From positions 434,001 through 498,000 of the forward strand of contig NZ_KB904327.1 in assembly GCF_000379965.1 (NCBI RefSeq): DNA of 64,000 bases, read 5' to 3'. Under the pieces are notes generated by a model. It searched no databases, had not been told where the DNA came from, and was given only the letters and a program-made list of their open reading frames with translations. Source of the DNA: Hoylesella nanceiensis DSM 19126 = JCM 15639. GTDB taxonomy: Bacteria > Bacteroidota > Bacteroidia > Bacteroidales > Bacteroidaceae. Positions 8,271 through 59,688 of this stretch are shown piece after piece (the stretch's first letter is position 1; the number at the start of each line of letters is the position of its first letter). A program made the translations under genes and the position numbers.

Positions 8271-8358
8271 AAAAGCAATACTTTTATAGTTCAATTGCAT
8301 TGCTTTTGAGATGCAATAGCTATGTTTTTACCTATAAAGAGCATAGCTTTTACAATAA
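8271..8358. repeat. Four-unit 22-bp intergenic array, copy A
   Basis: Four abutting 22-bp units start at 8271, 8293, 8315 and 8337. Each opens with AA, has GC at unit positions 5-6 and TTTT at 12-15. The 15-bp core of a unit is an imperfect dyad of the form AANNGCAWTGCTTTT. The array lies in the divergent gap between rlmI and the TIGR02757 gene, 42 bases before the latter's ATG. The rest of the gap 7913-8400 holds the rlmI promoter and AT-rich sequence with no gene I can support. Confidence 0.85.
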
Positions 8359-8400
8359 TAGAAGAATTTCTTCGTTATATACAATAATAATACATATACT

Positions 8401-9147
8401 ATGACAAAAGCAGAAAAGTATCATCTATTACACTCTTTAGCAGAGAAATATGAGACACATGATTTTCTTAAAGACGATCCATCGTACTTTATGCACCAAG
8501 TTATTGGCAAAGAAAATCAGGAAACAATGGCTTTTATTGCAGCCTGTTTAAGTTATGGTTCACGTACACAATTCTTTCCAAAGATACAGTTTATACTCGA
8601 TAAAAGTAATAAAGAACCATATAACTGGATTAAAAATGGGGAATATAAAGAACATTTCCCAAATGATAAATCTTGCTTTTATCGTCTTTATTCTAATGCG
8701 ATGATGTTGCAATTTTTCACCGCTTTAGAAACTTTATTTGAAGAATTCCATTCGTTAGAAAACTTTATTAGAACTACATCTGTAGACACTCTAACCGCAA
8801 TAGATAGTATATGTACTTATTTTTCACAGCAAAATGTGATTGGAATTATCCCAAAGAATGCTCGTTCTGCATGCAAACGCCTTTGTATGTTCTTACGTTG
8901 GATGGTTCGAAATGAATCTCCTGTGGACCTAGGTATATGGGAACACTTCATAGATAAGCGTAATCTTATTATGCCATTAGATACTCATGTTATGCAACAA
9001 GCACAGAAACTGGGATTCATTAGCACAAACACTGCAAAAATGAAGACAGCAATTGAGCTCACAAAACAAATGCGAAAGATATTTCCAAACGATCCTTTAA
9101 AAGGCGACTTTGCATTGTTTGGACATGGAGTGAATAACAAATTATAA
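8401..9147 (+). CDS. TIGR02757 (DUF2400) family protein
   Basis: The 248-residue protein has the features I associate with TIGR02757: the early segment FIAACLSYGSRTQFFPKI, the central RLCMFLRWMVR and the MPLDTHVMQQAQKLG stretch, followed by a C-terminal DFALFGHGV. The family is widespread in Bacteroidota and loosely resembles helix-hairpin-helix DNA glycosylases, but no activity is established. No signal peptide or membrane segment is present. It seems to be transcribed alone. The expected promoter is hard to see, because a 22-bp-unit array ends 42 bases upstream. Confidence 0.85.
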   Translation: MTKAEKYHLLHSLAEKYETHDFLKDDPSYFMHQVIGKENQETMAFIAACLSYGSRTQFFPKIQFILDKSNKEPYNWIKNGEYKEHFPNDKSCFYRLYSNAMMLQFFTALETLFEEFHSLENFIRTTSVDTLTAIDSICTYFSQQNVIGIIPKNARSACKRLCMFLRWMVRNESPVDLGIWEHFIDKRNLIMPLDTHVMQQAQKLGFISTNTAKMKTAIELTKQMRKIFPNDPLKGDFALFGHGVNNKL

Positions 9148-9211
9148 AGTGATATTGCATAAGAAACACGTCTGTTTGGTTGAATAAGTATCATTAGTGC
9201 ATTTTTATTTG

Positions 9212-9220
9212 TATCTTTGC
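9212..9220 (+). promoter_or_regulatory. -7 box for engB-ABC-F
   Basis: TATCTTTGC lies 88 bases before the engB ATG and matches TAnnTTTGC. No TTTG box is found at the usual spacing. Confidence 0.5.
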
Positions 9221-9308
9221 AAATAAATATTGGTATCCAAAAGGAATGTAATTAGAATATCATCTCTATCCTTTTAAGATACAATACTCATTCTTTAAAA
9301 CAACAAAC

Positions 9309-9920
9309 ATGGAAATAAAGAAGTCTGAATTCGTGGTTTCTTCACCCACAGTGAGCAAGTGTCCCACTGATAATAAATACGAATATGCCTTTATTGGCAG
9401 ATCAAATGTAGGCAAATCGAGCCTCATCAATATGCTTTGCGCACATAAAGGACTAGCAAAAACTTCATCAAAACCGGGTAAAACGCTACTTATTAACCAC
9501 TTTATTATTAATAATGAATGGTATTTAGTAGACCTTCCTGGCTATGGATATGCCAAACAATCAAAAGCAGTTCAAAAGAAATTGCAACAAATGATATCAC
9601 AATATATATTGCAAAGAGAGCAACTTATCAACCTATTTGTATTGATTGATATCCGCCATCCACAACAAAAAATAGACCGAGAGTTTATCGATTGGCTCGG
9701 AGCAAGTCAAGTTCCGTTTACTATTATCTTTACAAAAGCTGATAAACTAGGTCCCGTTGCGGCTCAAAAGAATGCTAGTGCGTGGATGAAAGCATTACAA
9801 GACGCTTGGGAAGAACTTCCTCCTTACTTTATAACAAGTGCAGAAAAGAAGATAGGAAGAGACGACGTATTGAATTATATCGACCAAATTAACGAATCAC
9901 TCGACACCAATGGCAAGTAA
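9309..9920 (+). CDS. engB: Ribosome-biogenesis GTPase EngB (YihA/YsxC)
   Basis: EngB is a small GTPase needed for maturation of the 50S ribosomal subunit. The 203-residue product carries the G motifs in order: GRSNVGKS (residues 30-37), DLPGYGYA (G3), FTKADKL (G4) and a late TSA (G5). The length is typical. It overlaps the next gene by 11 bases, so the two are translated together, and the pair ends at a strong hairpin at 11726-11769. Confidence 0.95.
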
Positions 9921-11697
9921 TATCCCTTATCTTGATATTCAGAATTTATCGAAATCGTTTGGCACACAAACGCTATTTCACAACATTTCGTTTTCTATTT
10001 CTGAAGGACAAAGAGTGGGATTAATAGCCAAGAATGGTACTGGTAAGAGCACCCTATTATCTATTCTCACAGGAAAAGAAAGTCAAGACGAAGGTAATAT
10101 CATCTTTAAAAGAGACTTAAGTGTGGGCTTTTTAGAACAAAGCCCACACTTTAATCCTGATGATACGGTACTAGAAGCATGCTTTAACCACAATGGTAAC
10201 GAAGAAAAGATACTAAAAGCAAAGCAAATTCTAACTCAATTAAAGATAACAGACCTTGCTCAACCCATCAAAGAGCTAAGCGGTGGACAGCAAAAACGAG
10301 TGGCTTTAGCTAATGTATTGATTACCAATCCAGATTTATTGATATTAGATGAGCCTACAAACCATTTGGATCTTGACATGATTATATGGCTTGAGGGTTT
10401 CTTATCACGTGGAAATAAAACCTTATTAATGGTTACTCACGATCGATATTTCTTAGATAGAGTGTGCAATAGCATCATAGAGCTAGACAATTCTATGATT
10501 TTCACCTACAAAGGTAACTATGCTTACTTCTTAGATAAACGACAAGAACGTATCAATAACGCTAAGGCTGAAATACAACATGCCAATAACTTATATAGAA
10601 GAGAGTTGGAATGGATGCGCAGACAGCCTCAAGCTAGAGGACATAAAGCAAGATATCGTGAAGAGGCTTTCTATGAATTAGAGAAGATTGCTAAACAAAG
10701 AATAGAAGAAAGGCAGATTCGTTTAAAGTCGAAAAATGTCTATATTGGTTCTAAAATATTTGAATGTCAATATGTTTCAAAGGCTTGGAGTCCTGAAAAG
10801 ATTATCTTAAAAGACTTCTATTACAACTTTTCTCGATTTGAAAAGATGGGTATCGTGGGCGATAATGGCACAGGAAAGTCTACATTTATAAAGATGTTAC
10901 TAGGCGAAGTTGCCCCTGATAGCGGTAAATTTGATATCGGAGAGACTGTAAAGTTTGGCTATTTCTCTCAAGAAGGGTTGAAGTTTAACGAGCAACAAAA
11001 GGTGATTGACATTATAAAAGACATCGCCGAATATATTGATTTGGGTGGTGGAAAGCACATGACAGCATCGCAATTCTTGCAGCATTTCATGTTTACTCCC
11101 GAACAACAACACAACTATGTATATAAACTTAGCGGTGGAGAGAAACGCAAACTCTATCTCTGTACTGTTTTAATGCATAACCCAAATTTCTTAGTTCTCG
11201 ACGAACCCACTAATGATTTGGATATTCAAACGCTTCAAGTATTAGAAGAATACCTACAAGATTTTCCTGGTTGCGTTATAATTATTAGCCACGACCGTTA
11301 TTTTATGGATAAAATCATAGACCATTTATTGGTTTTTGAAGGTCAAGGACGTATTAAAGACTTCCCCGGGAACTACACCCAATATCGTGAATGGGCTAAT
11401 CTACAGCCTCAAGAAAAAGCTCCAACAACTAGCAATTCAAAAGAGGATAGCGATCCAAAGAAAAACTATCGCAATGATACTAAGCGTAAATTAAGTTATA
11501 AAGAGAAGCGAGAATTTGAACAACTTGAAGAAGAAATAATTCAACTTGAAAAAGAACAAAAGGCTTTGGAAGATGCTCTTTCGGGCTCAGAGCTATCGGT
11601 TGAAGAAATAACAGAAAAGAGTAAACGATTGGCTAGCTTAAAAAATGAGTTAGACGAGAAGTCGTTTAGATGGCTAGAGTTAAGCGAATTGAACTAA
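9910..11697 (+). CDS. ABC-F family ATPase (Uup-like)
   Basis: Two ABC ATPase domains lie in tandem with no membrane segment, as in ABC-F translation factors. The first has Walker [10 protein letters not shown], signature LSGGQQKR and Walker [14 protein letters not shown]; the second has [17 protein letters not shown] and [14 protein letters not shown] charged linker separates them, and a C-terminal coiled coil (about residues 515-585, rich in Glu and Lys) matches the Uup subgroup. ABC-F proteins act on the ribosome; whether this one gives antibiotic protection cannot be told from sequence. It overlaps engB by 11 bases, which fits a ribosome-related pair. Confidence 0.9.
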
Positions 11698-11725
11698 TAC
11701 TCTCCCACTCTTTTAATACAACAAG

Positions 11726-11769
11726 AAAGCAATAGATGTTTAAATAAACATTTGTTGCTTTTTATTTTT
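11726..11769 (+). terminator. Terminator of the engB-ABC-F operon
   Basis: Two nested stems, AAAGCAA/TTGCTTT and ATGTTTA/TAAACAT, are separated by 3-nt internal loops, followed by TTTTATTTTT. It lies 29 bases after the ABC-F stop. Confidence 0.75.
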
Positions 11770-11938
11770 ACACAAATAGATGTTTCTTATCTTATTTATA
11801 GCTCTCCCATTTATCTCTATGTCTCTCAATAAATAGAAGTCTTCTCGCTTTCTTGGCAAGCTTTTAACTATTTAATATCAACAGGATTATTTCCTTACAA
11901 AATCAATAACTTTACTTTATTGCACATCTATCTTTAAA

Positions 11939-12026
11939 AAAAAAATAGCTTTTACAATGTAATATCAATGCTTTTATATTGCAATAGCAATGTAATTAGG
12001 ATACAAAAGCATAGCTTTTGTAATTG
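11939..12026. repeat. Four-unit 22-bp intergenic array, copy B
   Basis: Units start at 11939, 11961, 11983 and 12005. The first two and the fourth carry TTTT at unit positions 12-15; the third has AATT there. All keep AA at positions 1-2 and a CAATG or CATAG-like core. The array lies in the convergent gap 11698-12105 between the ABC-F and AraC genes, between their two terminator hairpins, so a role in initiating either gene is unlikely. Confidence 0.85.
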
Positions 12027-12058
12027 ATGAATAAAAGAATTTGCTCTTGAAAGAAATA

Positions 12059-12096
12059 CAAATAAAAAGAGATAGATTGCTTTTATCTATCTCTTT
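12059..12096 (-). terminator. Terminator of the AraC-family gene
   Basis: AAAGAGATAGAT and ATCTATCTCTTT form a perfect 12-bp stem with a 7-nt loop (12066-12096). On the minus strand it is followed by a T-rich run. It begins 10 bases after the stop codon. Confidence 0.75.
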
Positions 12097-12105
12097 CTAT
12101 AACAA

Positions 12106-12954
12106 TTATAGTGTTCCTTGAACCTTATGGGCACTTCGATAACGCAAAGGTGAAACGCCAACATAATGCTTAAAATAGCGTCCGAATGATGATTGATCTT
12201 GGAAATTGAACTCATTCGCAATATCTTTCATACTTAATTGAGAACCTGTTAGCAACTGCTTTGCTCGCATAATGGTTACATCTACAATCCATTGCATCAC
12301 ACTTTTTCCTGAAACTTCTTTAATAACCACAGAGAAATAGGCTGGTGAAAGATGCTGTTCATCGGCATAAAAAGCCACAGTTCGTTTACTAGGATAATTT
12401 AAAAGCAATGAACTGATAAATCTATCATAGATCGTTTCGTTATGAGTTCGAGGCAAAGAGTCTATTGGTTTCGACTCAAAAAAGACATTCAAGACATCGA
12501 AACATCCGAAAGTTACAATAGAGATAAGGGCTTCTTGAATAAACTTTCTATTGCTATCGATCGCTATTTCCTTATAAAAGCCTGCTCGGTCTGTAATCAA
12601 TCTCACCACCTCATCAATACGTGTACGTTGTTCTTCTCCTAAACGTACACATGGATTCTGTCTTAATCGTATTCTGTATTCAAGAGGAAGGGCCGCAATT
12701 GGACGGTAAAATATATCTTGAGTCTCTTCTATTATGATTGCAAGAAAATCGTCACTTGCCTCATGAATTGTTAATTCTCCATACGGAATATAAAGACAAA
12801 GATCGTTTACTGTAATATGATATTGTTTCTTTCCTAATGAAACATGCGCTCTACCTCGTACACAAAGAAAGAAACCATACACGTTTTTTGACGTAAAATC
12901 CTGAGCTGTTCTGACGTTTTTTAAATTAAAACTCTTAATTAGACTATTTGTCAT
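12106..12954 (-). CDS. AraC-family transcriptional regulator
   Basis: The 282-residue product has an N-terminal cupin-like effector domain (about 1-150) and a C-terminal double helix-turn-helix. The second helix region reads MKDIANEFNFQDQSSFGRYF and ends with HYVGVSPLRYR, the AraC signature. The effector is unknown. It is monocistronic, bounded by its own terminator. The nearest operons are nhaD (upstream, same strand) and the ABC-F gene; no target can be assigned. A 17-bp dyad (13177-13193) and a larger inverted repeat lie in its upstream gap. Confidence 0.9.
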   Translation of the reverse strand: MTNSLIKSFNLKNVRTAQDFTSKNVYGFFLCVRGRAHVSLGKKQYHITVNDLCLYIPYGELTIHEASDDFLAIIIEETQDIFYRPIAALPLEYRIRLRQNPCVRLGEEQRTRIDEVVRLITDRAGFYKEIAIDSNRKFIQEALISIVTFGCFDVLNVFFESKPIDSLPRTHNETIYDRFISSLLLNYPSKRTVAFYADEQHLSPAYFSVVIKEVSGKSVMQWIVDVTIMRAKQLLTGSQLSMKDIANEFNFQDQSSFGRYFKHYVGVSPLRYRSAHKVQGTL

Positions 12955-12976
12955 AGGATAAAAATATTCTGTGAAA

Positions 12977-12984
12977 CAAAGGTA
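12977..12984 (-). promoter_or_regulatory. -7 box for the AraC gene
   Basis: On the minus strand TACCTTTG lies 22 bases before the ATG, implying a short leader. No well-spaced -33 box is visible. Confidence 0.45.
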
Positions 12985-13176
12985 ATTATTTAATCAAGGA
13001 AATGTTTGTTAGTCCTAACTTTTCTGTAAAAAAAACATTTATATCGCATATTTCTTATACAAAGTTCTATTAATTTATTATATAATAAGACGCTATAAAA
13101 CGAAATATTGTATATTTTTAGACTGCAAAAGATGCATATCTTAAAATATAAGAAAGTATAATGTTTTTATAAAAGC

Positions 13177-13193
13177 ACTTACATTCTGTAAGT
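13177..13193. promoter_or_regulatory. 17-bp dyad, operator-like
   Basis: ACTTACA-TTC-TGTAAGT is a perfect 7-bp inverted repeat with a 3-bp centre in non-coding DNA, about 220 bases upstream of the AraC gene. It has the size of a dimeric regulator site, but no function is shown. Confidence 0.3.
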
Positions 13194-13230
13194 ATAGACT
13201 TGTTATCGTTTACTTGAAGTTATTTAATGT

Positions 13231-13292
13231 AAGGAATAAACTTTGGTGTTACTTGAAAATATAACATCTTATAACCTCAAAGTCCATTCCTT
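13231..13292. terminator. Inverted repeat downstream of nhaD
   Basis: AAGGAAT pairs with ATTCCTT and ACTTTG pairs with CAAAGT, with matched 2-nt internal loops and a loop of about 32 nt. It starts 72 bases past the nhaD stop. It may end the nhaD transcript, although neither side has a long T run. Confidence 0.45.
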
Positions 13293-13364
13293 TTATCTTA
13301 AGACTACTAACTTGTTTTGCCTAATAAACAACGAAGTTAATATTCTATTGAGTAGTTATTGAGT

Positions 13365-14705
13365 TTACCACAAATAAGTTCTGATCACCCAATAGCAGAA
13401 AATTCCAGCTAAATAGCCAACGAATGCTACTCCAGCTACACGCTTTAAATACCATCCAAAGCTAATTTTTTCGAGTCCCATAACAACAACTCCAGCCGCA
13501 CTTCCAATGATAAGGATAGATCCACCCACTCCTGCACAGTACGCTAAGAGCTGCCAAAAGATTCCATCTACAGCCATATCACCTGTAGGAGTCACTGTAT
13601 ACATACCCATACAGCCTGCAACTAGAGGCACATTGTCTACAATACTTGATAAAACTCCAATGAGTCCTGTTACAATAAAGTGGTTTCCTGCAGATACATC
13701 GTTAAGCCAAATACCAAGATTTTCTAGTACTTTAATTTCTTCTAGACATGCAACTGCCATCAAAATACCTAAGAAGAACAGGATAGTTGACATTTCAATA
13801 TGAGCAATTAGATTAGCAACTCTGTGCTTTATACCCTCATTATCGCCATGTTCTGCACGATAGAATATTTCAGTTGCAGTCCAAAGAACGCCTAATACCA
13901 ATAATATTCCAACGAAAGGAGGCAAATGTGTGATTGATTTAAATATCGGAACAAAGATTAAACCACCCACTCCAAGTACAAAGATGATTTTTCTTTGAGT
14001 CTTAGAAAAATCTAATACTTCATAATCCGTAGCCATATTAGAATCTACAAGGGCGAGTTCTCCTTTCAAAGAACGTTGAAGTAGAAGCGTAGGGATAATC
14101 ATTGACACCAAAGAAGGGATGAAAATCTCTTCCATTACGCCTGCAGCTGTAATCACACCTTTATTCCAAAGCATAATAGTTGTTACGTCTCCAATAGGTG
14201 AAAAGGCACCTCCTGAGTTTGCTGCAATAATCACTAACGATGCATATATCATGCGATCCTTATGATTTGGCACAAGTTTTCGAAGAACCATGATCATTAC
14301 TATACTCGTAGTTAGATTGTCGAGAATAGCTGAAAGGAAGAAAGTTATAAATACAATACGCCACAATAAGGTTCTTTTTCCACGTGTTTGAAGGATATCT
14401 CTCACAAAGTTAAAGCCACCATTCTTATCTACTACCTCTACAATTGTCATGGCTCCCATAAGGAAGAACAATGTTTCTGCAGTTCCACCGAGATGATGAT
14501 CGATTATACCTGCAATGGTTGAAGCGGTCGTTTCTGGTGTTAATCCGGCGATATATTCACCTGGATTAATCATAAACAATGTCCAACAGCCTACAAACAT
14601 CAATAAAGCTATAGCCGCTTTATTTATCTTTGTGAATCCTTCTAACGCTATACAGAGATAGCCAATCACAAAAACTACTACGATTAATAATGTTAAACTT
14701 ACCAT
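13365..14705 (-). CDS. nhaD: NhaD-type Na+/H+ antiporter
   Basis: This 446-residue polytopic protein of the ArsB/NhaD superfamily has about eleven to twelve hydrophobic segments. Recognisable stretches are FFLMGAMTIVEVVDKNGGF, ILDNLTTSIVMIMVLRKLVP, NSGGAFSPIGDVTTIMLWNKG and SSIVDNVPLVAGCMGMY; the paired D-N-x-T and D-N-x-P motifs are typical of NhaD. The protein would export Na+ in exchange for protons at the inner membrane. This fits a cell that also carries Na+-NQR and uses a sodium circuit. It is transcribed alone from the promoter at 14739-14774. Confidence 0.92.
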   Translation of the reverse strand: MVSLTLLIVVVFVIGYLCIALEGFTKINKAAIALLMFVGCWTLFMINPGEYIAGLTPETTASTIAGIIDHHLGGTAETLFFLMGAMTIVEVVDKNGGFNFVRDILQTRGKRTLLWRIVFITFFLSAILDNLTTSIVMIMVLRKLVPNHKDRMIYASLVIIAANSGGAFSPIGDVTTIMLWNKGVITAAGVMEEIFIPSLVSMIIPTLLLQRSLKGELALVDSNMATDYEVLDFSKTQRKIIFVLGVGGLIFVPIFKSITHLPPFVGILLVLGVLWTATEIFYRAEHGDNEGIKHRVANLIAHIEMSTILFFLGILMAVACLEEIKVLENLGIWLNDVSAGNHFIVTGLIGVLSSIVDNVPLVAGCMGMYTVTPTGDMAVDGIFWQLLAYCAGVGGSILIIGSAAGVVVMGLEKISFGWYLKRVAGVAFVGYLAGIFCYWVIRTYLW

Positions 14706-14738
14706 TTATTTATATATATTACTTGTTTTATTTTCGCT

Positions 14739-14774
14739 GCAAAGGTAAGAAATATATTTTATTTTCTTTGCAAA
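14739..14774 (-). promoter_or_regulatory. Promoter for nhaD
   Basis: The minus strand reads TTTG (14774-14771), 23 bases, TACCTTTGC (14747-14739). The spacing is at the long end for this promoter class. Confidence 0.5.
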
Positions 14775-14829
14775 TATTTATTTTTCGCATTATAACTCTC
14801 CACATATTTATATTTAAGAGATATTTTCT

Positions 14830-16878: not shown

Positions 16879-16962
16879 CTTGATATGCTTTTAGTTATTA
16901 TACACTAGCAAGTTTCTATAAAATGCTTAGGTTTAGATTGTATTAAGAGAGGATATTTTTAT

Positions 16963-16971
16963 GCAAATATA
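16963..16971 (-). promoter_or_regulatory. -7 box for the GH20 gene
   Basis: On the minus strand TATATTTGC matches TAnnTTTGC, about 85 bases before the start codon. A -33 box is not clear. Confidence 0.4.
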
Positions 16972-17050
16972 ATGAAAAAGAAAGGAATTGAAGCATAAAA
17001 TCATTGCAGATATAATGCCTTTGAAAACAAGATGTTATCTACCTATTTGC

Positions 17051-17138
17051 AATAGCAATGTAATTAGGTGGTAAAAGCATTGCTATTAGGGTTTAAAAAC
17101 AATGCAATTACACATCAAAAGCAATGCTTTTACTTTTC
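17051..17138. repeat. Four-unit 22-bp intergenic array, copy C
   Basis: Units start at 17051, 17073, 17095 and 17117. Cores read GCAATGT, GCATTGC, ACAATGC and GCAATGC. Unit four has the clean 15-bp dyad AAAAGCAATGCTTTT. The array sits in the divergent gap 16879-17307 between the GH20 and addA genes, between their two -7 boxes. Apart from those boxes and the array, nothing else is seen in the gap. Confidence 0.88.
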
Positions 17139-17265
17139 ACTTCCACTTGATGTAGACATCAAGCTGAAGCATTCTCCCAATAAAGACCCTATCAAAATGC
17201 ACACTGAAAGATAGTTTTTTGAATAAAAGGCTTCATTTTTAGGCTCTTTTTTCAATGATTTTATG

Positions 17266-23575: not shown

Positions 23576-23685
23576 AATTACATTGCTATTGCTTTATAAA
23601 AGCATATCTTTTACACTGTAAATGCAATGCTTTTACCACCTAATTACATTGCTTTTATTTTGCTTACACAATGCTCTTATAATAA
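23576..23685. repeat. Five-unit 22-bp intergenic array, copy D
   Basis: Units start at 23576, 23598, 23620, 23642 and 23664. It is the only array here with five units. The last begins TTAC rather than AA but keeps the ACAATGC core. The 7+4 base rhythm (core, then an A-type or T-type linker) can be followed through all 110 bases. It lies between the addAB terminator and the rho promoter in the co-directional gap 23433-23855; nothing else is seen there. Confidence 0.88.
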
Positions 23686-29025: not shown

Positions 29026-29113
29026 AAAAGCAATTCTTTTACATGCTAATAGCATTGAGATTACATTGTAAAAGCATTTTTATTACATCACAAAAGCATA
29101 GCTTTTAAAATAG
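29026..29113. repeat. Four-unit 22-bp intergenic array, copy E
   Basis: Units start at 29026, 29048, 29070 and 29092. Cores are GCAATTC, GCATTGA, GCATTTT and GCATAGC, and the second linkers are TTTT, GATT, TATT and TTTT. It lies 326 bases after uvrA and 775 bases before glnS, far from either gene. Confidence 0.85.
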
Positions 29114-35992: not shown

Positions 35993-36080
35993 AAAAACAA
36001 TGCTTTCACGATGTAAAAGCTATCTTTTTAGTGTACAATTACACTGCTTTTACAATGTAACAACAATGCTTTTATGATGA
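35993..36080. repeat. Four-unit 22-bp intergenic array, copy F
   Basis: Units start at 35993, 36015, 36037 and 36059. The cores of units one and four are ACAATGC, that of unit three is ACACTGC, and the second half of unit three reads ACAATGT. This copy shows both kinds of dyad centre well. It lies in the gap 35817-36278 between the manC promoter and the nqr terminator; nothing else is seen there. Confidence 0.88.
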
Positions 36081-46871: not shown

Positions 46872-46959
46872 AAAAGGATAACTTTTACTCTATAAAAGCA
46901 TTGACTTTGCCTTCTAATTACATTGCTTTTTAACGACAAACTCAATGCTTTTACAATAC
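46872..46959. repeat. Four-unit 22-bp intergenic array, copy G
   Basis: Units start at 46872, 46894, 46916 and 46938. The first is the most diverged (GGATAAC core) but keeps AAAA and TTTT at the set places. The third has ACATTGC-TTTT. It starts 68 bases after the TamB-like stop and ends 49 bases before the -33 box of the next gene. Confidence 0.82.
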
Positions 46960-52246: not shown

Positions 52247-52260
52247 CTATTAAATTGTTT

Positions 52261-54255
52261 TTATAAAGTTAGAGATGCCGTGAATCGCACTTGACGACCA
52301 GGCATCGGATAATATTTTATGATATCATATTGCTGATTAGTGATATTCTGTAATGTGAGTGAACACACCATTTGGGCTTGCTTTAGCATAAAATCTTTAC
52401 TCAATGTGACGCTATGCTCTGCGAAAGGAGCAAGTCGGTATTCACTTGTTTGCTGCATCATACTATAACGTTCGCTATTGGTAGACATACTATAACCAAC
52501 ACTTAGCCAAGGTAATTGAGCAACAAGCGTGCAATGAGCACTATGCTTTGGAGTGTAAGGCAATTGCTTATTGAAAGAATAAGTAGTGCGATCACTTCTA
52601 TCTAATGCTTGTTGTAGCGAATAAGAAAGGGTTCCTTGTAGGGAAAAGTCTTTAGAAAGAGGCCAAGAAACATTTGTAGTAAGATCTAATCCATAGATAT
52701 TTACTTTTCCAAAATTCACCATCTTCCATACATATAGTGATGGGAATGCTACCAATTTATCTTTCACCTTATTATAATATGCATCTACTGTGGTTTCTAT
52801 TTTCGCCTTATTGAAAAGCGATCCCTTATAGGTTAATCCACAATTCGCCATTATTGCTTGCTCTGGTCGAAGCTTCGTGTTGCCAAACTTTAAATAATAG
52901 AGTTCATTAAACGATGGCATTCGATAGCAACCCTTCAACATTAAGCGCATCAACAAGCCTTTATTAGGAAGCAAAGCATAAGACATTGCAATTGAAGGAG
53001 ATAGATTAAACCTTGTAAGAGCAGATGAATTATTCCTTGTTTTCTCGCTACTAAAAGACGAAACAAGCGTCCCTTCGCCTTTAAAACGCTTATAATGATA
53101 TTTTAAATTGAGTGCAGTTAAACTTGTAAAGCGAACTGGCTGCGCTGTTATTGCAGCACCTTCAAGAAGTTTATTCAAAGAGAAATCTTGCGAAAGAGAT
53201 AACGTTAAAGCTGAAGAAAACGTGTAAGCAAAGGCAGAAGAAAGATAGAATTCGTTCTGACTGTTGATTTCTTTCAGCATACCTGTTGGGTATTGACTAC
53301 CTACATCTATATATTTATTTCGGGCATAACTATAATTTAAGATTGCTTTCATTTGCATTCTTTGATCTAAGAGAGGCATTTGAAGAGTTGTCTGGAAAGC
53401 AAAATTATCATCCCATAATCGTTCTTTAGCATCGTGGTTATACAGAATCACTCCTCCAGGAAGTCCTCTTTCTGAATGATAATAATTGACCTTAGACTGT
53501 AATAGCACTCCTTCTTTAACCAAATGAAAAAGGTTCAACTCTGAATTCAGAGAAGAAATATCATCATTTTGACGTTTTTCTTTGGTTGTTAAACTTCCAT
53601 TTTTCAAGGTAAAAGGATAATCACCCTTACTCTTTATATATGTAACATTAGCTCCAATAGATGTTGTTGGGTTTATTTTCTGCCACAAACGGAAAGCTGG
53701 TTGATAGTAATTAAACGAGCCCAAAGTGAGACTTCCATTTACACTTGTATGCTTATTCGAATAGAAAAAAGCTTTTCCATCAGTCTCTATCATTAGTACT
53801 CCTGCCGAAGCATAATGTCTTGCCGTTTGTAATAAAGCACTGCTATGTCCCAAAGCCACACTTGTTTGAGTCACTCCGTCTGTGGTAAAGCGTCCAATAT
53901 CAATCTGTCCTGCTTGCAAATTACTAAGAACTAATCCATCATAGCTAACAGCTGTGTGGTGAGAAGATAGTCCTCTAAGACTAATTGTCTTCAATCCTCC
54001 CTGTCCACCATAATCTTTTACAGCTACACCAGCAAAGTATTTCACCGCATCTGATATACGATGGAAACCCAATTGCTGCATTTGCAGGTTATCAAAGGAT
54101 TGTATGGGTTGTAAAGAAAGGGCATTAACGGGTTGCTTACTACCATATATCTTCACTCCTTCGAGTTGATATGTGGCAGTAATACTATCGTTCTGTGCAT
54201 CAATAGGCAATACACACAAGAATAGAAAGAAGAGAATTAGATTCTTTCTTAACAT
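52261..54255 (-). CDS. btuB: TonB-dependent receptor, likely cobalamin (BtuB)
   Basis: The mature protein is an outer-membrane barrel with an N-terminal plug (YGGQGGLKTISLRGLSSHHTAVSYDG) and ends in an aromatic-poor VRFTASLTL strand. I use the ATG at 54255 (MLRKNLILFFLFLCVLPIDAQ), which begins a proper signal peptide; an in-frame TTG at 54270 adds five residues and has no support. The length is 664 residues. The gene is the first after the cobalamin riboswitch, 61 bases downstream of its P1 stem, so expression should fall when B12 is plentiful. It has no carboxypeptidase-like N-terminal domain of the SusC type. Confidence 0.88.
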   Translation of the reverse strand: MLRKNLILFFLFLCVLPIDAQNDSITATYQLEGVKIYGSKQPVNALSLQPIQSFDNLQMQQLGFHRISDAVKYFAGVAVKDYGGQGGLKTISLRGLSSHHTAVSYDGLVLSNLQAGQIDIGRFTTDGVTQTSVALGHSSALLQTARHYASAGVLMIETDGKAFFYSNKHTSVNGSLTLGSFNYYQPAFRLWQKINPTTSIGANVTYIKSKGDYPFTLKNGSLTTKEKRQNDDISSLNSELNLFHLVKEGVLLQSKVNYYHSERGLPGGVILYNHDAKERLWDDNFAFQTTLQMPLLDQRMQMKAILNYSYARNKYIDVGSQYPTGMLKEINSQNEFYLSSAFAYTFSSALTLSLSQDFSLNKLLEGAAITAQPVRFTSLTALNLKYHYKRFKGEGTLVSSFSSEKTRNNSSALTRFNLSPSIAMSYALLPNKGLLMRLMLKGCYRMPSFNELYYLKFGNTKLRPEQAIMANCGLTYKGSLFNKAKIETTVDAYYNKVKDKLVAFPSLYVWKMVNFGKVNIYGLDLTTNVSWPLSKDFSLQGTLSYSLQQALDRSDRTTYSFNKQLPYTPKHSAHCTLVAQLPWLSVGYSMSTNSERYSMMQQTSEYRLAPFAEHSVTLSKDFMLKQAQMVCSLTLQNITNQQYDIIKYYPMPGRQVRFTASLTL

Positions 54256-54316
54256 ATTGTATTTCCACAAAAAGACGTTTTTGACAGTCTTCCTCGAGAC
54301 GAATCAAAACTTAAAA

Positions 54317-54477
54317 AGCATAATGGCAGGTCTTCTGACTTTGCAAAACGAAGATAAACGTCTTCCCAATTACATCAGTGACATCGTGTTTATTTCGTAA
54401 TAATTATTGCTTACAGCAGCGGGACTGTTCAAGACTTTCACTTGATTCCCTTTTAATTCGTCTATCCATATCATGCT
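54317..54477 (-). promoter_or_regulatory. Cobalamin (adenosylcobalamin-class) riboswitch
   Basis: On the minus strand the conserved blocks appear in order: GGGAATCAAGTGAAAGTC (54450-54433), AGTCCCGCTGCTGT (54426-54413), CACTGATGT (54380-54372), GGGAAG (54367-54362) and AGTCAGAAGACCTGCC (54340-54325). An 8-bp P1 stem pairs AGCATGAT (54477-54470) with ATTATGCT (54324-54317). It lies in the leader of btuB. Binding of cobalamin should shut the operon off. Confidence 0.92.
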
Positions 54478-54530
54478 GAATATCTCACAATTCTTTACAT
54501 GTTATCAAAAGAATGAAACCATTTGCATTT

Positions 54531-54539
54531 GCAAAAATA
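54531..54539 (-). promoter_or_regulatory. -7 box for the btu operon
   Basis: On the minus strand TATTTTTGC fits TAnnTTTGC, about 55 bases upstream of the riboswitch. The -33 region would fall inside the end of the phosphatase gene; no clear TTTG is seen there. Confidence 0.45.
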
Positions 54540-54545
54540 CAATAT

Positions 54546-55292
54546 TTATTTTGAAAGACGTGTAAATTCGTCCTTAGCTTTTTGCAGTTGTTTCATAAAA
54601 GACTTGTCTGCATGCAAACGAGCAACGGCTGCACTACCTGCAAGACGAGCATTATCGACATCGCTTTGATAATGAAATCCAGCAATAACCCTACTCTCTC
54701 CTATCTCATATCCACGTTTAAGAATTTCCTCTTGTCGTGCAGGATTGATCTCAGAGAGCACCAATGCAATTCCCCAACCAGTGGCAGAATGTCCTGAAGG
54801 ATAAGAACCTGTATTGCGATAATGTGGTTCCTTGGCAGGAATAGAGGTCGTTTCATGAAATTGAACGAATGGACGCTTGCGCATATAGTGATGCTTTGCA
54901 GTTTGAGTTGCATATCCACAATCTGAGTTTAGCAAGGAAAGTAGATAAAATATCTGCGGAGTTGCGGTCTGAGAGATTTCTAATCCAAAAGCTTCAGAGA
55001 ACTGTCTTGCTAACGATTCAGCTGTTTGTGTTGCATCATCAATAGCTTGTTCGCCTCTTTTTGAATTTCTTATAGACTTTCCCCATTGATATCTTGAGAA
55101 GTCATTGAAGAATGCAACGCTCGAAGTATCAGGTGGAGCGGGTAGATATTTCACACCATCTGGAAGGTCTTTTACACTTAAAAAAGAAGGATACTTATTG
55201 TTCTTTGCTTGTGAAAAAGCGATATTCGGACTACTAGCAATAAAACAAACTGCCAATATTCCCACCATTTTATTTTTCAATATCAATTTCAT
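54546..55292 (-). CDS. Class A acid phosphatase (PAP2 superfamily)
   Basis: The 248-residue secreted phosphatase has a signal peptide (cleavage near SPNIAFSQA, residue 29). All three parts of the class A motif are present: KHHYMRKRP (K-x6-R-P), YPSGHS (P-S-G-H) and SRVIAGFHYQSDV (S-R-x5-H-x3-D). These enzymes act in the periplasm and release phosphate from varied monoesters. It follows the thioesterase gene by 35 bases and is probably co-transcribed with it. No phosphate-regulation site is visible. Confidence 0.92.
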   Translation of the reverse strand: MKLILKNKMVGILAVCFIASSPNIAFSQAKNNKYPSFLSVKDLPDGVKYLPAPPDTSSVAFFNDFSRYQWGKSIRNSKRGEQAIDDATQTAESLARQFSEAFGLEISQTATPQIFYLLSLLNSDCGYATQTAKHHYMRKRPFVQFHETTSIPAKEPHYRNTGSYPSGHSATGWGIALVLSEINPARQEEILKRGYEIGESRVIAGFHYQSDVDNARLAGSAAVARLHADKSFMKQLQKAKDEFTRLSK

Positions 55293-55327
55293 CTTTATAT
55301 TATTAATAAGGTATAAATAAGGATTTA

Positions 55328-55798
55328 TTATTCGTCTTCAACTTCACATTCTGTGAATCCCATTGCAGTTGCACGTTTCTTATCAAATGTGAAATAAGTG
55401 GCAACACCATGAACACACACTTCGTGGTTTTCATTTTCGATGGTTGCTTCTATATTTACGATATTTCTAAAAGTCGAAGAAATATGCGAACGCACGACAA
55501 TTACTTTTGAAGAAGAAAGTATTGGCTTACGATAATTCACCTCTAACTTACTTGTTACACCTGTTGTTTGCATCTTTCTCAAAACAACCCAGCCTGCAAT
55601 TTCGTCTATTATCGTACTTAATATTCCTCCATGCATCACGCCTACCCAACCTTGATAATGCTCACTGGGGTGCCAATATGATATAATTTCATCACCTTCT
55701 TCATAAAATTCCATCTTCAAACCTAATGGATTATCAGGACAACAACCAAAGCAATGGTATTCTTCTTTATGCAACCAAGGGTTCTTTATTTTCTTCAT
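55328..55798 (-). CDS. PaaI-type hotdog-fold thioesterase
   Basis: The 156-residue protein has the hotdog pattern: an early CFGCCPDNPLGLKMEF, then WVGVMHGGILSTIIDEIAGWV, which carries the conserved HGG and Asp/Glu of the PaaI group, and LEVNYRKPI. It likely cleaves acyl-CoA or acyl-ACP thioesters in the cytoplasm; the substrate is not clear. The cysteines in the first 25 residues (YHCFGCC) are a common extra in this Bacteroidota subgroup. A -7 box (TAATTTTGC) is at 55880-55888. Confidence 0.85.
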   Translation of the reverse strand: MKKIKNPWLHKEEYHCFGCCPDNPLGLKMEFYEEGDEIISYWHPSEHYQGWVGVMHGGILSTIIDEIAGWVVLRKMQTTGVTSKLEVNYRKPILSSSKVIVVRSHISSTFRNIVNIEATIENENHEVCVHGVATYFTFDKKRATAMGFTECEVEDE

Positions 55799-55879
55799 CT
55801 TAAATTATTGTTTAACATCTTATTTTTTACAATTGTTAATTCTTAACAGAAATACACAAACTTCACTCCATTAAGCAAA

Positions 55880-55888
55880 GCAAAATTA
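55880..55888 (-). promoter_or_regulatory. -7 box for the thioesterase-phosphatase pair
   Basis: On the minus strand TAATTTTGC lies about 82 bases before the thioesterase ATG. Confidence 0.4.
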
Positions 55889-55951
55889 CTTATTTCTGTT
55901 GAAATAAAAGTTTTTTATACATTTTATTCTACAACGTATAAGTTATTTTTG

Positions 55952-55960
55952 TAAATTTGC
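55952..55960 (+). promoter_or_regulatory. -7 box for the DUF190 gene
   Basis: TAAATTTGC matches TAnnTTTGC and lies 35 bases before the ATG. Confidence 0.5.
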
Positions 55961-55994
55961 AATAACCACTATAAACCTACAAACAAGTCAAGTT

Positions 55995-56339
55995 ATGAAC
56001 GACAAAGCAAAAATGATTAAGATTTATATAAGTAATACAGACTTATATGAAGACGAGCCTTTATATCATTTTCTAGCTCGAATGGCCAAAGAATTCAATA
56101 TGGCAGGTGCTACAATCTATAAAGGTATTATGGGATATGGATGCAGTTCTTCAACGATATTGCATTCACATTGGGAATTTACAGACAAGGTTCCTATCAC
56201 TGTTGAGATTGTCGATAATGAAGAAAAGATTCACGACTTTCTTGATAAGATTAAGCCTTTGCTTCAAAAGGAGCCTGATGGTTGCATCATAACAACACAA
56301 GATGTTGAAGTTGCACTCATTACTTTAGACTCAAAGTAA
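55995..56339 (+). CDS. DUF190 family PII-like protein
   Basis: The 114-residue protein matches DUF190, a family with a PII-like ferredoxin fold: KIYISNTDLYEDEPLYHFL at the start, GATIYKGIMGYG in the middle and VPITVEIVDNEEKI near the end. Relatives often sit beside crcB fluoride channels and may bind nucleotides, but here no crcB is adjacent and the gene is alone. The start ATG at 55995 gives MNDKAKMIKIY; the second Met (residue 7) is an alternative that matches the core of the family. Confidence 0.85.
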   Translation: MNDKAKMIKIYISNTDLYEDEPLYHFLARMAKEFNMAGATIYKGIMGYGCSSSTILHSHWEFTDKVPITVEIVDNEEKIHDFLDKIKPLLQKEPDGCIITTQDVEVALITLDSK

Positions 56340-56669
56340 TAAGCTCTTACTTTTACTTTAAGTATCTTTTACACATAGCCTTGTAACAAAAGCATAATAG
56401 GATATGTGCGGTTCTGTAACAACAATTAAATTAAAACAAGATAAGAAGATTACCCCTTTCGTACTTTTTATTAGCTAAACTGAAATAATACCATAAATAC
56501 CACCCTTTTGTAGGAATGGCATTATCGATATATTGGTTACAATTAATGCAAGAAACAGATTGCAAGTTTAAAGGATACTACATTCTAAAAGAACTCAACA
56601 CACAAGTGATTCCTAATATTATCCTTAATATTCCTATCTTTATTACTATAAAATAATAGATTGACAGCT
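56340..56669. other. 330-bp convergent gap with no gene
   Basis: AT-rich DNA between the DUF190 and dapA stops. It holds loose TTTTAC and AAAAGCATAA pieces that recall the 22-bp units but are not in register. No clear terminator hairpin and no coding frame are seen. Confidence 0.5.
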
Positions 56670-57557
56670 TTACATTTGAAGACCTTTCAAAATGTTTGCC
56701 ATCTTTTGTTTTGTAGTAATACGGGTTGGAACTAATGGTAATCGAAGTACATTCTCAATGAAACCCATTTCGCTTAATAATGCTTTCACGCCCGCAGGAT
56801 TACCATCTACAAATAATAAATCATACAACTCTGCAAAACGATGATGAATAGTTCTAGCAGGTTCGTATTCTCCATTAAACTCTAAACGTATCATTTTAGA
56901 GAATTCTCTAGGCAAAGCATTACCTATTACCGATATTGCTCCAGCTGCTCCACTAGCAACCATTGAGAATGTTAAGGCATCATCACCACTTAATACATCA
57001 AAACGATTAGGTTTATTTTGAATAATCTTATCCACTTGTTCTAAGTTTCCGCTTGCTTCTTTAATTGCAATAATATTCTCACAATCATTTGCAAGGCGCA
57101 CAGTTGTATCCCATTGCAAATTCACTCCAGTTCTACCTGGAACATTATAAAGCACCACTGGCAACGGACTTTCTTTAGAAATAAGTTTAAAATGCTGATA
57201 TAAACCTTCTTGGGAAGGTTTGTTATAATATGGACAAACACTCAAAATGGCATCTACCCCTTTAAAATCTGTAGTTTTCAGCTCATGTACTACGGCTTGA
57301 GTATTATTTCCTCCACATCCAATTAAGATGGGAACTTTACCTCTACATTGGTCTACAACAATATTTTTTATAGTCTGTTTCTCTTCAATCGACAAACAAG
57401 GAGTTTCTCCTGTTGTTGCTAATATGCACAAAAAGTCGGCTCCATTCTGCAATTGATAATCGATAATACGTTGCAATGCATCATAATCAACACTTCCATC
57501 TAACTTAAATGGAGTAACAAGAGCTGTTCCTAGACCTTTAAATATATTACAAGCCAT
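56670..57557 (-). CDS. dapA: 4-hydroxy-tetrahydrodipicolinate synthase
   Basis: DapA condenses pyruvate with aspartate semialdehyde, the first step specific to lysine and diaminopimelate synthesis. The 295-residue barrel has LATTGETPCLS, the tyrosine in VLYNVPGRTG and the Schiff-base lysine in IIAIKEASG (near residue 165). The length is normal. It is transcribed alone, with a -7 box at 57690-57698 and a leader near 130 bases. No lysine riboswitch is evident in that leader. Confidence 0.95.
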   Translation of the reverse strand: MACNIFKGLGTALVTPFKLDGSVDYDALQRIIDYQLQNGADFLCILATTGETPCLSIEEKQTIKNIVVDQCRGKVPILIGCGGNNTQAVVHELKTTDFKGVDAILSVCPYYNKPSQEGLYQHFKLISKESPLPVVLYNVPGRTGVNLQWDTTVRLANDCENIIAIKEASGNLEQVDKIIQNKPNRFDVLSGDDALTFSMVASGAAGAISVIGNALPREFSKMIRLEFNGEYEPARTIHHRFAELYDLLFVDGNPAGVKALLSEMGFIENVLRLPLVPTRITTKQKMANILKGLQM

Positions 57558-57689
57558 AATTTTATTGAGATAAAGTTATGATATCACAGTATTCTTTCTC
57601 GTAAAAAAAACTCCTTGGTTATCTACTTTCAACGCTTTTAACACAATCTATCTCCTTCATTTCAACGAGTAGAAACGCCGTGAATCTAT

Positions 57690-57698
57690 GCAAAGATA
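57690..57698 (-). promoter_or_regulatory. -7 box for dapA
   Basis: On the minus strand TATCTTTGC matches TAnnTTTGC, about 133 bases before the dapA ATG. Confidence 0.45.
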
Positions 57699-57821
57699 AT
57701 AAATTTATTTGAAGAAATAATTGGAAACATACAAAATAAAAGAAATAAATACGCAACCATATAACAGGGGATACAGAAAACCATTCAAAAGATAATTATG
57801 AAAAGAAAAATAAGGATAAAC

Positions 57822-57852
57822 TTGCAATGGGTTTCATATTTTTGTAATTTTG
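57822..57852 (+). promoter_or_regulatory. Promoter for the DUF6359-like lipoprotein
   Basis: TTG (57822-57824), 20 bases, TAATTTTG (57845-57852), 29 bases before the ATG. Confidence 0.6.
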
Positions 57853-57881
57853 TAAAACGATATTAACCAAAAACAACAATA

Positions 57882-58526
57882 ATGAAAGCATTTATTTATT
57901 CTATTATTACAGCACTATTTATCAATCTGTGTGCTTGTGAAAAACCTTATTCTCCAGAAAAAGAGAAAAATAAGAAAGAAACTACTATCGATTCTGAAGA
58001 TGAAAAGGAAGAAGAAAAGCCTTCGGATGATGAAAAGAAGAGCCCTTCTGAAGATAAAAAAGAATCTGAGAACAACCCTCCCACTCCAGAAAAACCTAAT
58101 CCTGACAAAGAAAAGGAAGGTACTACACCTGACAATCCATCAAACGACAAGCCCGATAACGGCAATACAGTTCCTAAAGAAGACCACATTTCAATATCTG
58201 ATTTCTTAACTAAAGACTATCTATATCAAATATGGGTACAAGGTTATATTGTGGGTTCATGCTCAGGAAACATAAAGAATGCTACTCTAGAAGCACCTTT
58301 TAGCGGTCTATCTGCCATACTATTAGCAGATAATCCAAACGAGAAAGACATCAAAAAAATGATTGCCATTGAATTAAAGAGTAGATCTCAAGCAAGAAAA
58401 GAACTCAATCTTGTAGATAATCCTAATAACTTTGGACGAAAAATAAAGGTCTTTGGGTATCAAGAAGATTATCTAAATATTCCAGGAATTAAATCATGGG
58501 GCAACTCATACGAATGGGTTAAATAA
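57882..58526 (+). CDS. Lipoprotein with charged linker and DUF6359-like domain
   Basis: The 214-residue protein has a lipoprotein signal ending in INLCAC (Cys19). Residues about 20-100 are a low-complexity linker of Lys, Glu, Asp, Pro and Ser. A small C-terminal domain (about 105-214) has VQGYIVGSCSGN and IPGIKSWGNSYEW, which resembles the OB-fold DUF6359 found in Bacteroidales surface proteins. The linker would hold the domain away from the membrane. Function is unknown. It has its own promoter, and a weak stem at 58553-58569 follows the stop. Confidence 0.75.
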   Translation: MKAFIYSIITALFINLCACEKPYSPEKEKNKKETTIDSEDEKEEEKPSDDEKKSPSEDKKESENNPPTPEKPNPDKEKEGTTPDNPSNDKPDNGNTVPKEDHISISDFLTKDYLYQIWVQGYIVGSCSGNIKNATLEAPFSGLSAILLADNPNEKDIKKMIAIELKSRSQARKELNLVDNPNNFGRKIKVFGYQEDYLNIPGIKSWGNSYEWVK

Positions 58527-58552
58527 TTATATCATCATTCCTTATCCTTATA

Positions 58553-58569
58553 ATTGCCTCAAAGGCAAT
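58553..58569. terminator. Small stem between convergent genes
   Basis: ATTGCC-TCAAA-GGCAAT, a 6-bp stem between the lipoprotein and transporter stops. There is no T run on the + side, so it is weak as a terminator. Confidence 0.3.
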
Positions 58570-58597
58570 CAAATTGTAACGCAGAAGTCTCTTCAAA

Positions 58598-59536
58598 TCA
58601 GCGAGAAGAAGACATATCTCGCTTTGATTTTGAACGCACAACAAGCCAAACTCCTATAAAAATAAGGACTACAGCAATAAAATGGTTGAATGTTAACGCT
58701 GCTAATCCCAAAGAAACACTCACTATGGTAGCCACAACTGGTTGCATATAGTTATACATGCTCACTACAGTAGGACGTAAGACACGTTGTCCTGAGATCA
58801 TCAATAAATAGCAAATAAAGGTTCCAAACACTACAACATACCCTACTTCTAAGTAGGTTTTTAGCGATATTTGTGAAAAAGATATCGCTTGAATGCTGGG
58901 AAAGGCGAACGGGAACAACAGCAGTGTAGCCCAAAGAAACATCCATTTATTAATGGTAAAGACAGAATAACGCTTTACAAGTTTATTAAAAATGGTAAGA
59001 TAGAGCGTATAAGACAATTGAGCTCCTAGACATAGGAGGTCTCCTTTGATACTTCCTACCCCATTAACTCCAGCCATTCGCAAACTTGTTGAGATCAATA
59101 ACACAGCCCCTGAAAATCCAAGAGCTACCCCTATTGCCTTTTTAGGAGTGATCGGCTCTTTCAAAATCAAAGCTGAAAGTATCAAAGCAAAGATAGGCAT
59201 TGTGGTAGTTATGATGCCAGCATTAATGGGAGAGGTAAGACTTAAGCCTATGGTATAGCAACATTGATTACAAATTAAGCCCAAGATAGCAGCTAACATA
59301 AAAAGGAAAATGTCTTTTCGGCATACATTCTCTTTCTGAACAAATAAAGAAGCAAGCCAAAAGAGTGTAGCTCCTCCTAGAATACGGAACATCACTAATG
59401 CTACTCCATTTATACCATTATTCATTGCATCTTTACCTAAAGGGGCCATTAACCCCCAAAATGTTGCAGCACCTAACAAACTAAAGTGCGCAAAAAGAGG
59501 TTGCTTTGTATTTTGATTCATATTTGTTCTGTTCAT
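58598..59536 (-). CDS. EamA/DMT-family transporter
   Basis: The 312-residue protein has ten hydrophobic segments arranged as two five-helix EamA repeats, each with the usual glycine-rich ends (LLGAATFWGLMAPLGKDAMN at the start of the first, GDLLCLGAQLSYTLYLTIFNKLVKR at the start of the second). Such exporters move amino acids, nucleosides or other metabolites; the substrate cannot be read from sequence. A second in-frame ATG lies at residue 6. The gene is monocistronic. Array H begins 65 bases upstream, and no -7 box is clear between them. Confidence 0.9.
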   Translation of the reverse strand: MNRTNMNQNTKQPLFAHFSLLGAATFWGLMAPLGKDAMNNGINGVALVMFRILGGATLFWLASLFVQKENVCRKDIFLFMLAAILGLICNQCCYTIGLSLTSPINAGIITTTMPIFALILSALILKEPITPKKAIGVALGFSGAVLLISTSLRMAGVNGVGSIKGDLLCLGAQLSYTLYLTIFNKLVKRYSVFTINKWMFLWATLLLFPFAFPSIQAISFSQISLKTYLEVGYVVVFGTFICYLLMISGQRVLRPTVVSMYNYMQPVVATIVSVSLGLAALTFNHFIAVVLIFIGVWLVVRSKSKRDMSSSR

Positions 59537-59600
59537 TATATATTAACCTCGGAAGATGAACTTTTTACTTCTAAATACTTACTTCATTCACATTAAATAT

Positions 59601-59688
59601 AATAGTATAGCTTCTCGCCTACAATAGCATTGCTATTAAGATGTAATTCTACTTCTTTTAGAATGCAATATCACAGCATTTTACTTTC
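59601..59688. repeat. Four-unit 22-bp intergenic array, copy H
   Basis: Units start at 59601, 59623, 59645 and 59667. This is the most diverged copy: only unit two has the full GCATTGC core, and units three and four read CTACTTC and TCACAGC. The AA at positions 1-2 and the 22-bp register hold in all four. It lies between the transporter gene and tRNA-His. Confidence 0.72.

Follow-up and report, generated by a model that had tools for sequence, protein, structure and literature searches.

REP/BIME elements are palindromic repeats that lie between genes at high copy number. They have been reported as targets of insertion sequences (PMC1525189). Among the Bacteroidales, the BrickBuilt miniature inverted-repeat transposable element (MITE) of Porphyromonas gingivalis carries 23-nt tandem repeats and IS5-type terminal inverted repeats (PMC4596501), and the Prevotella intermedia/nigrescens group harbors PINSR, a 188-bp intergenic repeat without terminal inverted repeats, with 177 copies in one P. 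intermedia strain and 184 in another, conserved between strains at about three-quarters of its places, found at some rearrangement sites and described as being of unknown function (PMC4755523). The elements MTnPi1-3, which encode two distantly related tandem recombinases (PMC5704250), have the integration sites TTAC-N5-AA, TTGC-N5-AA and TTAC-N5 followed by two purines (PMC5704250, citing PMC4755523). We report here on eight intergenic arrays of 22-bp units in a 64,000-nucleotide window of the genome of Hoylesella nanceiensis DSM 19126, namely positions 434001-498000 of contig C1 in an assembly of 2.65 Mb and 12 contigs (designated G000; other G numbers denote the genomes or records compared with it, and L numbers denote sequence stretches).

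An earlier note on this DNA had described the eight arrays, and their coordinates and exact 22-bp register are confirmed, as are its unit statistics (AA at the start of 32 of 33 units, C at position 6 in 29 and TT at positions 14-15 in 31) and the presence of an array in 8 of the 12 gaps longer than 240 bp in the open reading frame (ORF) list. Its count of "four (once five)" units per array holds except that the one fifth unit is weak (Table 1). The unit consists of a 15-bp near-palindrome with the consensus AAAAGCAWTGCTTTT and a 7-bp spacer with the consensus of roughly ACAATGY, and because the two alternate, each array is a lattice with two dyad axes 11 bp apart. The note was also right that these are not clustered regularly interspaced short palindromic repeats (CRISPR), as the repeats are degenerate 15-bp dyads and the spacers measure 7 bp; the window arrays lack the combination of near-identical repeats and unique spacers of much the same length.

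The 11-bp attachment (att) site of MTnPi1-3, TTAC/TTGC-N5-AA (PMC4755523, PMC5704250), corresponds to the array spacer together with the TT and AA on either side of it; the published site is a lone 11-mer, whereas several such sites stand here in conserved tandem ladders. Like REP/BIME elements, the arrays are intergenic, palindromic, numerous and targeted by mobile elements, but they are AT-rich, keep an exact 22-bp tandem register, lack stem covariation and occur in a genome with no RAYT match; the array consensus shows neither a tagged stable stem-loop of the REP/BIME type nor positive covariation. They share with BrickBuilt an occurrence in the Bacteroidales and a short tandem repeat, but BrickBuilt has another consensus and IS5-type terminal inverted repeats; no MITE-type terminal inverted repeats were found in the G000 array flanks, which have no conserved sequence. 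They resemble PINSR in being dispersed, intergenic, present at high copy number and largely conserved between close genomes. PINSR differs in being one 188-bp repeat of a single clade, whereas the window arrays span 81-88 bp, have another core and lack conserved flanks.

Mobilizable elements in the spacers of the arrays

Sequence comparison shows as new that mobilizable elements with two tandem tyrosine recombinases are inserted in the 7-bp spacers of such arrays. The closest named relative found was Prevotella sp. oral taxon 299 F0039 (record NC_022111.1), with 97.1% protein identity to G000 in UvrA and 91% DNA identity over the best place. The G000 array at C2:34573 is uninterrupted; the same array in F0039 is cut after its first unit, in the first spacer, by a 14.2-kb segment with the direct repeat TTACATTGC at both junctions. 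The left junction reads TTTTACATTGC and then continues into the element, while at the right junction TTACATTGC is followed by units 2-4. The direct repeat of this element (L279), being TTACATTGC followed by GA or AA, fits the att rule TTRC-N5-AA. A tandem pair of tyrosine recombinases with arm-binding and SAM-like domains is encoded in the element, together with a relaxase, a NikA-like protein and a primase-type protein of the Toprim/zinc-finger kind; the recombinase pair, the relaxase and a primase-type gene are also features of MTnPi1-3, and the inserted elements are likened to MTnPi1-3 by gene content and site rather than by identity of element sequence.

A relative of the first recombinase with at least 74% identity was present in all nine genomes or records searched, which had been picked for matches to element ends, and the left end of the element was matched in 14 of 60 genomes, several of the matches being short. 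Elements with a full-length match to this end number two in G000 and two in NC_022111.1, and all four lie at arrays; by our reading of the flanks, seven of their eight ends abut array units and the eighth lies where the orthologous G000 array begins. The second such element of NC_022111.1 extends from L139:33746 to about 957 kb, and its start coincides with that of the orthologous G000 array (L017:7166). One of the G000 copies (C1:573988-576233) looks decayed, because its tandem recombinase genes contain in-frame stops; the copy at C1:176632 has an open frame for its first recombinase.

Ladders next to element ends were also sought by a model-free lag test, for which the 90-bp flanks of 21 left and 18 right ends (39 in all, the two ends of an element being counted apart) were taken from nine genomes or records, with sequence 150-600 bp away serving as control; both groups of flanks gave a peak at lag 22 and the controls gave none. 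For the 19 flanks from G000, F0039, G010, G012 and G017, identity at lag 22 was 0.48 versus 0.27 in controls; for the 20 flanks from G003, G016, G026 and G029, genomes with zero to two matches to the model built from the window units, it was 0.42 versus 0.28. Lag 22 ranked first in 14 of the 19 flanks and in 11 of the 20, compared with 10 of 190 and 15 of 200 controls. The spacers in these flanks begin with RC at 19 of 21 left ends and end with GY at 18 of 18 right ends. Ladders with a different dyad, TTATACACGTNTGTATAATTGN, are seen at element ends in G003 (L312) and G026 (L313), which have none and one window-model match, respectively, and an element end in P. nigrescens is also preceded by a unit-like sequence and a 7-bp spacer. 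The proposition that genomes without model matches lack arrays was overturned in part by these lag-22 ladders.

The motif TTRC-N5-AA is enriched within the arrays 12.6-fold in G000 and 11.5-fold in F0039. Altogether 316 of 475 internal spacers are att-compatible and 154 of 156 arrays hold at least one such spacer; all three internal spacers of the window array at 29026 fit the rule. Judged by the positions of the insertions, the arrays serve as landing sites (attB) for elements of this "Tyr duo" type.

We propose that tyrosine recombinases find in each array a ladder of sites of the core type: strand exchange would take place in the 7-bp spacer, which lies between inverted half-sites starting with AA, and the sites repeat every 22 bp, or two helical turns. 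Tyr-duo elements of the MTnPi1-3 type are inserted in the spacers or at the edge of an array, and by these positions the arrays serve as chromosomal attB scattered between genes. A DNA-binding protein, whether a resident recombinase or a host protein exploited by the elements, may bind the imperfect dyads and may be the reason for which the arrays are conserved. Two open frames of G000, one of 410 aa at C2:540993 and one of 376 aa at C9:70213, encode tyrosine recombinases, and frames of the same length occur in several relatives; it is possible that these are resident enzymes acting on the ladders.

Copy number, inheritance and genomic context

With the window-unit model, 160 unit pairs at a spacing of 22 were found in 400 kb of G000 outside the window, and none in one Markov shuffle. 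An iterated 15-bp model, retrained on the same sequence that was searched, called 65 arrays in 464 kb of G000 (59 of four units, three of three and three of five), a density biased upward because the 20 stretches were partly picked around earlier matches; each of five shuffles of G000 gave no arrays. In F0039, for which 19 stretches totaling 943 kb were taken on a grid and from the orthologous region and searched at a slightly laxer threshold, 92 arrays were called (73 of four units, nine of five, eight of three, one of six and one of seven). Neither of the outcomes that the earlier note had named as fatal to its claim was encountered, since the shuffles did not reproduce the density and many further copies are spread across the genome.

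The 65 called arrays of G000 and the one at 59601 were compared with F0039. Of these 66, 13 lie in gaps collinear with F0039, 13 could be aligned on one side, four have their sides in different places and 36 had no ortholog among the F0039 DNA retrieved. Arrays were called in F0039 in 12 of the 13 collinear gaps, and the thirteenth (L024:16989) aligns to decayed sequence. The called number of units agrees in 11 of the 12 kept orthologs, the exception being an exact 22-bp deletion. The arrays are, by these alignments, vertically inherited in the two close genomes; no array-free empty site was found in which to look for a target duplication left by the array itself.

Substitutions were counted in 17 ortholog pairs, which comprise the 13 collinear ones and four beside synteny breaks. 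The core positions (1, 2, 6, 7, 9, 10, 14 and 15) differ at 29 of 535 sites (5.4%) and the flanks at 663 of 3984 (16.6%; Fisher p = 9e-14); the corresponding counts are 68 of 400 at positions 3-5 and 11-13, and 90 of 420 at position 8 and in the spacers. Indel events number five in the arrays (3.7 per kb) and 44 in the flanks (11.0 per kb), the five being small gaps at L013:10248, L013:14398, the window array 35993 (two) and the decayed L024:16989. By this comparison the array core bases are under purifying selection and the arrays are living sites, not relics, with a spacing that is strongly, if not perfectly, kept. The earlier claim that selection maintains the spacing is thus right about the motif and largely about the spacing, but single-base gaps do occur inside aligned arrays.

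The orientation of the neighboring genes is not neutral. The note had placed arrays in divergent, convergent and co-directional gaps; divergent gaps of 120-399 bp are nearly empty. In this size range the G000 arrays occupy 14 of 60 co-directional gaps and 10 of 20 convergent ones, but 0 of the 15 divergent ones; the F0039 counts are 24 of 136, 13 of 46 and 2 of 36, respectively. Of the 66 arrays of G000, 52 lie in called gaps that are 120 bp or longer, and eight overlap a called ORF, some of these ORFs being small. The F0039 record is a 1.77-Mb replicon labelled as a plasmid, with no dnaA match and with housekeeping genes such as uvrA, and arrays are unevenly spread along it. Over 18 stretches the F0039 array density follows a gradient (Spearman -0.73, p = 0.0006), as do the number of gaps itself (-0.68) and the arrays per gap (-0.63, p = 0.005); we do no more than note it, because dnaA is absent from NC_022111.1 and the origin was guessed from GC skew.

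Synteny between G000 and F0039 is broken at 15 of 26 gaps with an array and 17 of 58 without (p = 0.017), and among gaps of 200-700 bp at 12 of 17 and 7 of 20 (p = 0.049), an enrichment that is weak because no single length bin is significant. Two neighboring pairs of G000 arrays (74 of 81 and 73 of 81 positions identical, where column-permuted arrays reach a maximum of about 63) are alike inside the array only. One pair, L027:12017 and L027:16938, 5 kb apart, shares 43 identical bases in a row, again inside the array only, and dissimilar arrays apparently occupy both sites in F0039 (the second site being aligned on one side only), which points to conversion between arrays rather than insertion. 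A 9.2-kb module of G000 (C2:12005-21231; L020:12005 to L021:1231), whose genes we take, from reading rather than from a family search, to be SusC/SusD-like, lies between two similar arrays where F0039 has a single array. These few cases suggest sequence exchange between arrays.

Table 1. Arrays and related features of the window (positions within the 64,000-nucleotide window)
Feature	Positions	Strand	Remarks
Four-unit 22-bp dyad array	8271..8358	.	2 of 3 internal spacers fit TTRC-N5-AA in some orientation; ortholog kept, F0039 L139:11562
Four-unit array, convergent gap	11939..12026	.	Flanked by terminator-like sites 11724-11763 (+) and 12062-12100 (-), weak evidence
Four-unit array at synteny break	17051..17138	.	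F0039 ortholog L010:42070
Four clear units and a weak fifth, at synteny break	23576..23685	.	Register; chain search called four
Four-unit array downstream of uvrA	29026..29113	.	F0039 uvrA also has a downstream array, L009:23007; no orthologous alignment of flanks and arrays was possible
Example 7-bp spacer (putative recombinase overlap region), units 1/2 of the 29026 array	29041..29047	.	Register
Four-unit array	35993..36080	.	F0039 ortholog L010:22661, two single-base alignment gaps; synteny break just beyond array
Four-unit array	46872..46959	.	F0039 ortholog L010:26398, no indel within array; synteny break on left
Most degenerate array, four units, beside tRNA-His	59601..59688	.	Below chain-search threshold

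Rfam matches in the window amount to one cobalamin riboswitch and one tRNA, and nothing else; the riboswitch (54308-54504, minus strand) lies in the gap before an apparent TonB-type receptor and uptake gene cluster. A single window array tried against a phage collection gave no match.

Ladders in related genomes and their likeness to PINSR

The window model found matches at an E-value of 0.001 in 16 of 60 genomes, all of the same genus and including G000, and seven of the 16 had one to four matches. Relatives carry 22-bp ladders with other cores and other numbers of units: five units in 7 of 12 chains of G012 and six in 5 of 8 chains of G006 (among the chains listed, the first three per stretch), and ladders with cores of their own in G001, G014, G027 and G010. 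The G016 stretches (180 kb) showed no ladder, and all that was seen in the G024 stretches (200 kb) was a different minisatellite (L122:13836). It is short, differs from the dyad ladders and consists of 22-bp units that are nearly identical and contain AAACGTTTC. A strict ladder search at 80 UvrA loci, which required AAAA/TTTT edges and covered about 20 kb per genome, gave one match at period 22 and also one at period 20.

Genome G017 carries a repeat of about 205 bp with approximately five dyads, of which no fewer than 40 copies reach an identity of 86% (scored: 40 of 325 candidates). This repeat is probably PINSR or a sister of PINSR, because P. nigrescens records carry relatives of it (77% identity at the best place, with nine places in that record); the 22-bp dyads were seen within the G017 repeat. 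An Rfam match to the small RNA FopS (L111:1666-1735) lies a few hundred bases from one G017 copy. The earlier statement that no named family matches the arrays therefore needs amendment, as PINSR (PMC4755523) probably shares their architecture. No conserved sequence of the PINSR type surrounds the ladder in the 59 four-unit G000 arrays, a comparison that involved no direct alignment with the PINSR consensus. The accessible text of PMC4755523 makes no mention of a 22-bp dyad ladder or of element insertion into PINSR; among the papers listed by a literature search for PINSR, that one alone uses the term, and our other searches of the literature showed no description of such 22-bp ladders.

Explanations for the conservation of the ladders

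If the arrays acted as RNA, in the form of tandem hairpins such as terminators or processing sites, it would be natural that every unit is near-palindromic, that convergent gaps are well populated and that folding is better in the 40 arrays tested than in their dinucleotide shuffles (mean z -1.5). One array, in the convergent gap 11697-12106, sits between two terminator-like sites; the terminator scan as a whole gave 10 sites, with 10.1 expected from shuffles. The pairing statistics argue in the other direction. Watson-Crick agreement within the dyad is at or below expectation (z -4.3 to 0.8), and around the spacer axis it is mostly negative (to -4.3), distance 10 being the sole exception with a positive value (z 2.6). 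Among adjacent half-sites that face each other, 50 of 924 are identical versus 112 expected, so that perfect palindromes are avoided; among those pointing the same way, 138 of 792 are identical versus 100 expected. The arrays also fold worse than column-permuted ones (-17.7 versus -18.6 kcal/mol, sd 0.4, five permutations), and no window array has an Rfam match at the gathering threshold. We have rejected the hairpin or terminator reading as highly improbable, covariation being absent or negative and folding worse than in the permuted arrays. The note's proposal of selection on a protein-DNA site fares better, since a protein site on DNA fits the covariation, folding and half-site tests better than RNA does.

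That the arrays are functionless remnants of a mobile interspersed repeat, left by a burst of MITE, REP/BIME or PINSR elements, also seems quite unlikely, although the high copy number and identity of the G017 repeat and the two neighboring G000 pairs that are alike inside the array only would suit such an origin. A decayed repeat would not be expected to show constrained core positions between G000 and F0039 or to persist, as arrays do, in 12 of 13 collinear gaps, with a decayed array in the thirteenth; one of the alike pairs, moreover, points to conversion and not insertion, and conserved flanks are absent in G000. The idea of a free-standing miniature mobile repeat, one of the roles suggested in the note, is thus unsupported in G000, where orthologous gaps keep their arrays and no conserved sequence was found in the flanks of the 59 four-unit arrays. 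The RAYT family (Y1 transposase, PF01797) was matched in 9 of the 19 genomes or records searched; the array-bearing relatives G001, G006, G010 and G014 have one or two matches each, but G000, the F0039 record, G012 and G017 have none. A RAYT/REP origin was accordingly rejected for G000.

A more substantial possibility, though not the one that we favor, is that the arrays are host architectural or boundary elements, that is, cooperative sites for a nucleoid-type protein on curved DNA at the ends of transcription units, where the elements land without doing harm. Purifying selection that extends to dyad bases beyond the att rule, the near absence of arrays from short divergent gaps, the location of the strongest half-sites at the outer ends of the arrays and the prevalence of four units are all consistent with such a role, as is the curvature predicted from wedge values, which is about double the shuffle value (bend index 0.100 versus 0.050, with flanks at 0.060). 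On the other side, no candidate for the binding protein was found, and the F0039 density gradient depends on an origin guessed from GC skew. Across species, furthermore, the period of 22, the AA/TT edges (in many species) and the att-like spacer stay while the dyad core changes, a pattern that fits the needs of the elements at least as well as those of architecture.

We consider it reasonably probable that the arrays are dispersed ladders of tyrosine-recombinase core sites that are used as attB and conserved for some other reason. Several observations weigh against this reading. Most TTRC-N5-AA matches lie outside arrays (the share inside is 12.8% in G000 and 8.8% in F0039), and therefore something beyond the 11-mer, either the ladder or a protein bound to it, must contribute to the choice of target. 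Positions 6, 7, 9 and 10 are likewise under selection, although the published att site makes no demand on them, and use as attB cannot by itself explain conservation, because a target role benefits the element and not obviously the host. A lag other than 22 was best in 14 of the 39 flanks (G026 L321, for example), TT stood at the expected place in just 21 of 39, and the element census covers those that resemble one query end, leaving out a 29-base G000 match at C5:156073 and the other F0039 replicons. A ladder of recombination sites and an architectural role in the host can both hold. As a whole, the interpretation in the earlier note was sound with regard to selection, a protein site and the distinction from CRISPR, but it missed the spacers as insertion sites of mobile elements.

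It is conceivable, if rather doubtful, that the ladders form a maintained recombination system across much of Prevotella, in hundreds of copies with species-specific cores and a fixed 22-bp geometry, served by a resident recombinase or retained as safe harbors. If so, incoming elements would be channelled away from genes, and whole gene modules would be exchanged between ladders. Ladder targets may explain the degenerate look of the 11-bp attachment sites of one family of Prevotella mobilizable elements, and they offer a testable role for the class of dispersed repeats, PINSR and its kin, that was described in 2015. The insertions suggest how Prevotella may acquire mobile cargo without disruption of its genes, and where its chromosomes may rearrange.

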